Shown here: piece by piece, positions 25,655 to 25,804 of the stretch
Layout: each line of letters starts with the position of its first letter
Position numbering within the stretch: the first letter of the stretch is position 1
Origin: Paludibacter sp.
GTDB taxonomy: Bacteria > Bacteroidota > Bacteroidia > Bacteroidales > Paludibacteraceae
Direction: 5' to 3'
Assembly: GCA_024710005.1 (NCBI GenBank)
Contig: JANJVQ010000030.1
Coordinates: 62,001-126,000 of the forward strand
Length of the DNA: 64,000 bases
Translations under genes and position numbers: made by a program
The notes under the pieces: model-generated
Told to the model about the DNA's origin: nothing
Databases searched by the model: none
The model's input: the letters and a program-made list of their open reading frames with translations, nothing else

Positions 25655-25804
25655 GTCGCCAGACACCAGACACCAGACACCAGACACCAGTCTAAAGTCT
25701 CCAGTCTCCAGTCGTCGCTGTCACTATTCGCTATTAGTTATTCGCTATTCACTTTTCGTTTTCCGCTCTCCGCTTTTCGCTTTTAGTTTTCCGCTCTTCG
25801 CTTT
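25655..25804. repeat. Long 7-bp-period repeat tract with drifting unit
   Basis: About 21 heptamers in one phase. The unit starts as AGACACC x4, then passes through GTCTCCA, TATTCGC, TATTAGT and TTTCCGC. The whole aguA-aguB gap is made of it. Confidence 0.92.

Follow-up and report, generated by a model that had tools for sequence, protein, structure and literature searches.

Heptanucleotides are the commonest long simple repeats in most genomes (Mrazek, 2007, cited in PMC4679880), and the 7-nt period has been proposed to reflect the contact or footprint of the polymerase (Mrazek, 2007, cited in PMC4679880 and PMC4692102). Sets of the heptamer TAACTGA have been described from marine Beggiatoaceae, Cyanobacteria and five Bacteroidetes including Paludibacter propionicigenes, and for Paludibacter two heptamer sets are already in print (MacGregor, 2015, PMC4679880). 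In some genomes these repeats are mixed with other heptamers. Indels between two close Cyanothece strains are mostly of 7 nt, and some close relatives have shorter gaps that lack obvious heptamer repeats (PMC4679880). Heptameric repeats are also known from the cyanobacteria Calothrix and Nostoc, as are GGGAATC or GGGGAYT units from Xanthomonas and Nostoc (Rehm, 2015, PMC4692102).

The DNA considered here is a stretch of 64,000 nucleotides from a Paludibacter sp. genome (hereafter the window; the genome, G000, has 3.24 Mb in 36 contigs and is 99.85% complete). A sequence-only reading of the window had named 13 tracts with a strict 7-bp period and drifting units, and knew of no such repeats in Bacteroidota; the TAACTGA sets of five Bacteroidetes show that such repeats had been described (PMC4679880). 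The tracts themselves are real. A lag scan that required at least 25 matches per 35-bp window found 13 lag-7 tracts, one at or beside every position named. Among lags 2 to 40, matches occurred only at multiples of 7, apart from single cases at lags 18, 23 and 29, and none of 20 Markov-1 simulations of the window contained a lag-7 position. Tandem Repeats Finder reported period-7 arrays at most of the same sites, along with short arrays of other periods. The same excess was seen in an own-genome sample of 464 kb, which comprises the window and 20 stretches of 20 kb picked by coordinate and represents 14% of the genome. This sample held 27 lag-7 tracts, while the other lags from 2 to 13 gave four in total (one at lag 2, two at 11 and one at 12) and lags 15 to 30, multiples of 7 aside, gave 17, with at most four per lag. 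Lag-7 cover was 38.5 per kb in intergenic and 0.6 per kb in coding DNA. Multiples of 7 aside, intergenic cover was 0.5 to 5.0 per kb at the other lags between 4 and 15, and 0.0 at lags 16 and 17. A chance origin of the tracts is ruled out by the simulations and the lag-7 excess in the 464 kb. Additionally, one pattern of the genome's own vocabulary matched the genome 137 times and a second, of the GACTCCA type, 83 times; neither matched at all when reversed.

The tracts of the window and the genes that flank the tract flagged for study are as follows, with strand given where the feature has one.

12604 to 12694: inverted heptamer pair with a TAGTGGA arm and a CCACTAT arm, hairpin of about 30 bp, RNA fold z -10.9.
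15500 to 15583: GTCTCCG/GTCTGGC tract ending at the stop codon of the upstream gene, one unit shorter than in G027.
24767 to 25639, minus strand: flanking gene, carbon-nitrogen hydrolase (PF00795), probably N-carbamoylputrescine amidase (aguB).
25641 to 25804: the flagged tract, a GACACCA/GTCTCCA array, the junction GTCGTCGCTGTCAC, then a CTATTCG/CTTTTCG array.
25803 to 26807, minus strand: flanking gene, agmatine-deiminase-like (PF04371), putatively aguA.
28592 to 28686: tract with inverted arms that fills a convergent gap from stop to stop, RNA fold z -5.4.
29658 to 29738: GTCTCCA remnant (29658-29670) and GCTATTC/GCTCTTC tract, fold z -0.5 (no excess stability).
35237 to 35291: left arm (GAATAGC/GGAAAAC) of an inverted tract pair, nearly identical in G027.
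35354 to 35428: right arm (GCTATTA/GCTTTCC), partner of the arm at 35237 to 35291, reaching the stop codon of folB.
35777 to 35821: GTCTATT/GTCTACG tract that adjoins a palindromic GTCGCTACCTACGGCAGC stretch, upstream of folB.
39953 to 40113: inverted pair of a GCGGAAAAC arm (about 39960-39995) and a CTTTCCG arm (40065-40113).
40685 to 40796: GACTCCA array upstream of the adenylate kinase gene, RNA fold z -4.4.
41500 to 41555: AAAGTCT array between divergent genes, with a REP-like element after it, fold z -0.3 (no excess stability).
43928 to 43982, minus strand: CTTTCCG tract, in frame in a 4Fe-4S protein (KRKAENGKRKAENN) together with adjacent REP-like copies.
50344 to 50425: two arms, CCAGACA and GACTGGC, directly ahead of the probable ATG (predicted start) of the next gene, RNA fold z -5.0.

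Eleven of the 13 positions named earlier lie inside tracts of the scan and two beside them. At 12604 to 12694 the threshold catches only the right arm (12647-12689) and position 12612 falls in the left arm, while position 29658 precedes its tract (29677-29735 or 29671-29738) by 13 to 19 bp. The latter tract overlaps the 3' end of a Na+/H+ antiporter gene. The flagged tract occupies the whole space between its flanking genes, with the A-rich start region of the C-N hydrolase gene at one end and the stop codon of the agmatine-deiminase-like gene at the other. That units change within a tract while the phase is kept also held on inspection, except for a single 1-base break in the flagged tract, seen by eye near 25700. 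When adjacent units within tracts were compared, 487 of 1614 base comparisons were mismatches. Transitions make up 45% of these, which makes a contribution of point mutation probable. A 23-bp tandem repeat, GTGACGTAAGGTTACGTTATGGT, also occurs in four copies at 2714-2807 of the window.

The tracts share much with the known heptamer systems. Like the heptameric short tandem repeats (STRRs), they consist of tandem 7-bp units in many dispersed, mainly intergenic copies in one genome, and their unit number changes in 7-bp steps, here between the close species G000 and G027 (three of five gaps). The STRRs, however, keep a nearly constant unit sequence, and the 487 mismatches in 1614 comparisons depart from this. 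Because the units drift within tracts, these tracts are a variant of the heptameric STRRs rather than a plain member. As with the TAACTGA repeats, they are tandem 7-mers, dispersed and mostly intergenic, and in the TAACTGA case the sites are strain-specific (PMC4679880). In contrast, that study followed one fixed unit, whereas the present units drift both within and between tracts; most TAACTGA sites of the Guaymas Beggiatoaceae genome directly precede start codons, whereas the present tracts often touch stop codons; and the inverted arms of the present tracts co-vary, unlike the TAACTGA repeats as studied there (PMC4679880). Tandem TAACTGA was absent from the listed tracts of the 464-kb sample, where single occurrences exist, but TAACTGA and TAGCTGA units are found in the genus member G016 (L136). 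The repeats of Rehm (2015) resemble the tracts in their heptamer period, dispersal, over-representation in non-coding DNA and variable unit number; their length and sequence likewise vary between close species, and convergent heptamer pairs in Xanthomonas form inverted repeats that recall the present arms (PMC4692102). The GGGAATC-type units, however, are described as G-quadruplex formers with a consensus (PMC4692102), and no GGG or CCC run was seen by eye in the units that recur within the own tracts, although single units have one, for instance at 35777 and 50344. Surveys of long simple sequence repeats with units of 5 to 11 nt, by Mrazek and co-workers, appear to score runs of a given unit, and unlike the repeats covered by the PMC4060949 survey, the tracts drift and share a genome-wide vocabulary. 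No account of drifting, vocabulary-sharing heptamer tracts was found among the literature matches listed. The kind is therefore known, but a fixed period combined with a dialect particular to the lineage, with copying from locus to locus and with joint changes of arms was not found described and looks new.

The tracts are less widespread than the sequence-only reading, which placed them in most intergenic gaps, had supposed. With at least 28 bp of lag-7 cover counted as a tract, they occur in 8 of the 33 window gaps of 40 bp or more and in 19 of 182 such gaps in the remainder of the sample. The window is a tract-rich spot, with 13 tracts in 64 kb as against 16 in the other 400 kb (binomial p 5e-5). 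The tract at 43928-43982 lies inside an open reading frame and that at 29677-29735 overlaps the 3' end of one; those at 40065 and 50344 overlap predicted gene ends or starts, where the gene calls are rough. The calls in the sample come from codon-usage scripts, which makes start codons approximate. In co-directional gaps the median distance of a tract is 0 bp to the upstream stop and 30 bp to the next start. Sign and strand counts were restricted to tracts of co-directional gaps that lie outside predicted genes and away from the ends of stretches. In this unbiased set 13 of 22 tracts are closer to the stop and 9 to the start (p 0.52), which is not the start-codon placement of the Beggiatoaceae. 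In a set picked by CTATTCG matches the counts are 29 and 11 (p 0.006), and in pieces of G027 and G029 they are 11 and 9 (p 0.82). The proximity to stop codons is suggestive only. Divergent gaps have lower tract cover by base pairs (1.0% versus 5.6-6.0%), but a deficit per gap was not found (3 of 41 with a tract versus 24 of 174, p 0.43).

The tracts also differ between strands. Of the 20 classified tracts in co-directional gaps, 16 have their purine-rich strand on the mRNA side and 4 their pyrimidine-rich strand, with 2 mixed tracts set aside (unbiased set, binomial p 0.012). The set targeted by pattern gave 29 purine-rich, 10 pyrimidine-rich and 1 mixed, and the tracts of relatives gave 12, 4 and 4, respectively. 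Non-tract gaps of 60-300 bp were balanced (18 purine-rich, 19 pyrimidine-rich and 57 mixed), but those of 40-100 bp were not (25, 12 and 27), so short gaps as such may account for some of the bias. The asymmetry may be linked to transcription.

Within the genome, the tracts draw on a common set of units that includes GCTATTC/GCTTTCC, GTCTCCA/GACACCA/GACTCCA, TAGTGGA and GTCTAAA. When all pairs of own tracts were compared by their best ungapped local score in either orientation, 71 of 406 reached at least 20. After all seven columns of each tract were permuted, a mean of 6.4 pairs and a maximum of 9 did so in 10 runs. The 406 pairs are not independent, because the window supplies 13 of the 29 tracts and, in two pairs, both members are arms of a single locus. 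Of the 203 pairs formed with the 7 tracts of G016, 1 reached 20; at a score of at least 16 the counts are 95 of 406 own pairs and 7 of 203 with G016. Some loci share longer stretches. The 28 bases TGTCACTATTCGCTATTAGTTATTCGCT, which include a non-repeat junction, are identical near 25.7 kb of the window and, as the reverse complement, on contig C30 (L089), and 34 of 35 bases are common to the tracts at L094 and L089. An irregular order of units common to unlinked loci indicates that tracts were copied between loci, and it disfavors separate growth from local seeds. The own-genome tracts thus appear to form one dispersed heptamer family with a common vocabulary barely shared with G016, which looks new.

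Relatives carry tracts with partly different letters. When the lag-7 threshold was set at 24 or more matches in 35, the own sample had 4.0 tracts per 100 kb, the window 20.3 and G016, a member of the same genus in a single contig of 3,685,504 bases, 1.5. The density was 3.8 in other genomes of the genus, where 8 of 20 had a tract, 0.7 in other families of the order (2 of 20) and 2.1 in named Bacteroidota loci (22 of 80); 50 kb of E. coli K-12 had none. Pieces of G027, G029 and G010 had 26.5, 30.1 and 10.9, respectively, having been chosen as counterparts of tract-rich regions. The units of G016 are TGAACAG, TAGCTGA/TAACTGA, CACTGAT and GTTACGA, and other genus members have AGAACAA, CTGATAA, ACAGTTG and TCAAGAA. 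The CTATTCG pattern with up to two mismatches matched in 11 of 60 genomes, the own one included, and more than three times only in G000, G027, G010 and G029. The reversed control gave nothing in these four genomes, but matched 15 times in G009 and 20 times in G057, where different heptamers may be active. The pattern counts and the unit lists together indicate a vocabulary that is held partly in common with close relatives but not with more distant ones. Since genus members, whose enzymes are presumably similar, use other units, a sequence preference of the polymerase is disfavored as the source of the vocabulary. The earlier observation that the period is conserved while the units drift thus extends to the genome sample and to the relatives.

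Orthologous gaps of G000, G027, G029 and G010 provide a view of tract turnover. Five gaps of G000 and G027, which are close species rather than strains, were rated by eye as near-identical outside the tract, and three of them differ by 7, 14 or 56 bp of units. Specifically, G027 has one unit more (7 bp) in the gap at 15446 and eight more (56 bp) in the GACTCCA array of the gap at 40662, the remainder of which is near-identical, and at L098:11405 the 14 bp of units lie beside a 2-bp difference. In the gap at 35233 the length is kept and one unit exchanged, and at 41434 the tract is unchanged; the AAAGTCT array at 41500 to 41555 is also present in G027. At 36654, however, G027 has an additional 90 bp with weak heptamers, which is not a whole number of units. 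Other gaps have changed more thoroughly. At 28592 two stop codons meet in G027 and G010, and in G000 a tract of 94 bp lies exactly between them; the difference is not polarized by an outgroup and could be a gain or a loss. In the aguB-aguA gap, G029 has two arrays in the same order and with the same GTCGTCGCTGTCAC junction but made of other units, and no array is found in this gap in G027 and G010. The gap at 34206 holds REP-like copies in G000 and heptamers in G027 and G029. At 39923-40088 inverted arms surround a spacer in all four genomes, with three unit types: one in G000, one in G027 and one in the G029/G010 pair. Independent assemblies of relatives carry tracts at several of the same sites, though not at all of them. 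With this and the lag-7 excess in the 464 kb, neither outcome that the sequence-only reading had named as a refutation has come about. Along window positions 35233-41705, stretches with 95-96% DNA identity to G027:C8 neighbor others with 83-84%, and proteins are up to 99-100% identical; this patchiness suggests recent recombination between the species.

The REP and Rickettsia palindromic elements are palindromic, dispersed and intergenic, and occasionally stand in frame inside genes. The tract at 43928 is like them in the last respect, although no fixed element sequence was seen in the own tracts, which have periodic arms and no linked transposase. The tract and its REP-like copies are read in frame in the linker of the 4Fe-4S protein (Pfam), from KRKAENGKRKAENN to VIARSAQHDEAT; this linker exceeds its counterparts in G029 and G010 by 39 and 49 residues, respectively. 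Here the protein has the seven-residue repeat KRKAENG. The same linker in G010 contains a heptamer of its own, GTCAACC, five times, read as STVNRQPSTVNR with the repeat STVNRQP. Seven-residue peptide repeats thus arise from a tract inside a gene, as had been foreseen from the arithmetic of codons and heptamers. The in-frame tract and REP-like DNA at 43820-43986 resemble the Rickettsia palindromic elements found in genes.

A minority of tracts carry inverted arms, which are not a universal feature. An inverted match score of at least 14 was found in 10 of 29 tract regions and not always between array arms; in L096, for example, the match is at the tract edge. Among 145 random control regions of equal length, mostly coding, the 90th percentile was 10 and the maximum 18. 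The median inverted score was 9 within loci and 10 across loci, so locus-specific arm matching is clear only across species. There, in 16 cases hand-picked after arms had been noticed in many of them, an arm matched its own partner with a mean of 17.2, other partners with 10.2 and the same locus of another species with 11.1, and none of 20,000 permutations reached the observed match. The arms at 29643 match poorly (2, 7 and 12). In the gap at 12594-12681 all three genomes compared have arms, and the 70-bp hairpin at 12612-12681 differs between G000 and G029 at six pairs: three changed on both sides and are still paired, two changed on one side and leave G-T, and one is paired only in G029. When eight tracts were folded as RNA and compared with shuffles, four were strongly stabilized (z -10.9, -5.4, -5.0 and -4.4), two moderately (-2.8 and -2.7) and two not at all (-0.5 and -0.3). 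The matching of arms could result from selection on a hairpin or from the copying of one arm from the other.

Based on these comparisons, we consider it probable, with moderate confidence, that the tracts are one dispersed family of heptameric short tandem repeats, in which recombination or template switching accounts for the spread, slippage or unequal exchange for the changes in length, and mutation for the drift of units. The 90 bp at 36654 speak against this family model, since not every tract difference is then a whole number of units. The purine bias on the mRNA side and the co-variation of arms count against a view of the tracts as neutral DNA, and would be explained if the tracts were selected RNA (or DNA) elements, that is, hairpins in 3'-UTRs or between cistrons that begin with a purine-rich arm and end, stabilize or insulate transcripts, and whose units are free to change while the arms stay complementary. 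The paired changes at 12612-12681, the within-species arm match of the hand-picked set and the fold stability of half the tracts tested are consistent with such elements. Yet most regions lack a clear inverted match, two folded tracts have no excess stability and the arms at 29643 fit badly; moreover, the two G-T pairs at 12612-12681 would be A-C mismatches in the mRNA of the flanking genes, tracts are lost or replaced in orthologous gaps, and the window has no Rfam match at gathering thresholds, nor was any known RNA or tRNA found in it. Selection of this kind as the main explanation is unlikely.

A mobile element of the MITE or REP type, with heptamer arms as inverted repeats and inserted by a transposase acting in trans, would account for the insertion-like site at 28592 and for the arms that flank AT-rich spacers at several gaps. 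REP-like palindromes of the form GTCATTGCGAG...GCTTCG...CGCAATGAC lie at window positions 34250-34611, 43820-43930, 47164-47341 and 49387-49459, some adjoining tracts. Among gaps of 60-2000 bp, one REP type is commoner in those with tracts (6 of 26 versus 13 of 158, p 0.03); a second is not clearly enriched (1 of 26 versus 1 of 158). In G029 the gap orthologous to 28592-28685 (L181:6512-7750) contains a Y1 (IS200-like) transposase gene (PF01797), amid palindromic GCTTCC..GGAAGC repeats and with tract remnants at both ends. However, none of the six Y1 transposase genes of the own genome has a tract or tested REP pattern within about 1 kb, which leaves a RAYT or Y1 transposase unsupported as the driver. 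Neither a constant terminal sequence nor a target duplication was seen by eye, and 19 of 29 tract regions have no clear inverted match. A mobile origin is thus clearly unlikely. If each tract had instead grown on site from a 7-mer by independent slippage, with a polymerase favoring 7, length changes by whole units would follow, in keeping with the prevalence of heptamers and the footprint proposal (Mrazek, 2007, cited in PMC4679880). The earlier remark that a conserved period with free sequence is unusual for slippage is weakened by the three near-identical gaps that differ by whole heptamers, but it stands insofar as local slippage does not explain a vocabulary shared within the genome far above permuted controls and almost not at all with G016, or irregular unit orders common to unlinked loci. 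Local slippage as the whole explanation is largely ruled out on these grounds and is very unlikely. A dedicated activity that makes or copies heptamers, such as a specialized polymerase, reverse transcriptase or recombinase, would suit the finding that several species of the genus hold strictly to the period but not to the letters, and that arms change in concert; no candidate gene was identified, and such an activity seems highly improbable. Most relatives are draft assemblies and contigs often break at repeats, which could point to an assembly artefact; such an artefact is excluded, to a practically negligible chance, because other assemblies carry the same tracts at several of these sites and the single-contig genome G016 has tracts as well.

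Under the model of one dispersed family, part of the process can be read from the comparisons. Whole 7-bp units are gained or lost inside tracts, and pieces of tracts, irregular unit orders included, are copied between unlinked loci in either orientation. Units drift while the period stays at 7, with a vocabulary partly common to close relatives and almost absent from the distant genus member, and the tracts sit mostly between genes. The gain and loss of units would be due to replication slippage or unequal exchange. Mismatch repair deals efficiently with loops of 1-3 bp (Mrazek and Huang, 2014, PMC4060949), and loops of 7 nt may be too large for it. Copying may proceed by ectopic recombination or by template switching in replication or repair. 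Inverted copies may arise in the same way, and hairpin-templated synthesis could keep their arms alike. Tracts would survive by tolerance, with promoters spared, and would be mostly purged from genes because 7 is not a multiple of 3. Most would be near-neutral; a minority form strong hairpins that may affect transcripts secondarily.

A bolder possibility, which we regard as doubtful, is that Paludibacter-type bacteria possess an active process, locked to one period, by which heptamer arrays are written between genes and spread within a genome as a lineage dialect, and by which arms are kept complementary through copying from arm to arm. If this is true, the period would come from the process and the letters from descent, and the sequence would turn over while the architecture persists. 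The tracts bear on the old question of why heptamers dominate the long simple repeats of bacteria. Because the period is fixed while the letters differ across species, and because close pairs are separated by single steps, slippage, copying and hairpin-templated correction can be separated by comparison. Additionally, the tracts show one way in which intergenic DNA forms and is rapidly replaced, and one in which seven-residue peptide repeats enter proteins.

Other genes were found beside heptamers in the relatives. In G029, a HigB-type toxin gene and its helix-turn-helix partner lie between aguA and a saccharopine-dehydrogenase-like gene (L181:3889-4790), and this locus adjoins a GACTGGC heptamer array. 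Upstream of folB in G027, two inverted GACTCCA arms enclose a spacer that contains a DDE transposase gene (PF01609; L182:12089-13572), as if the spacer were a safe landing site for it.
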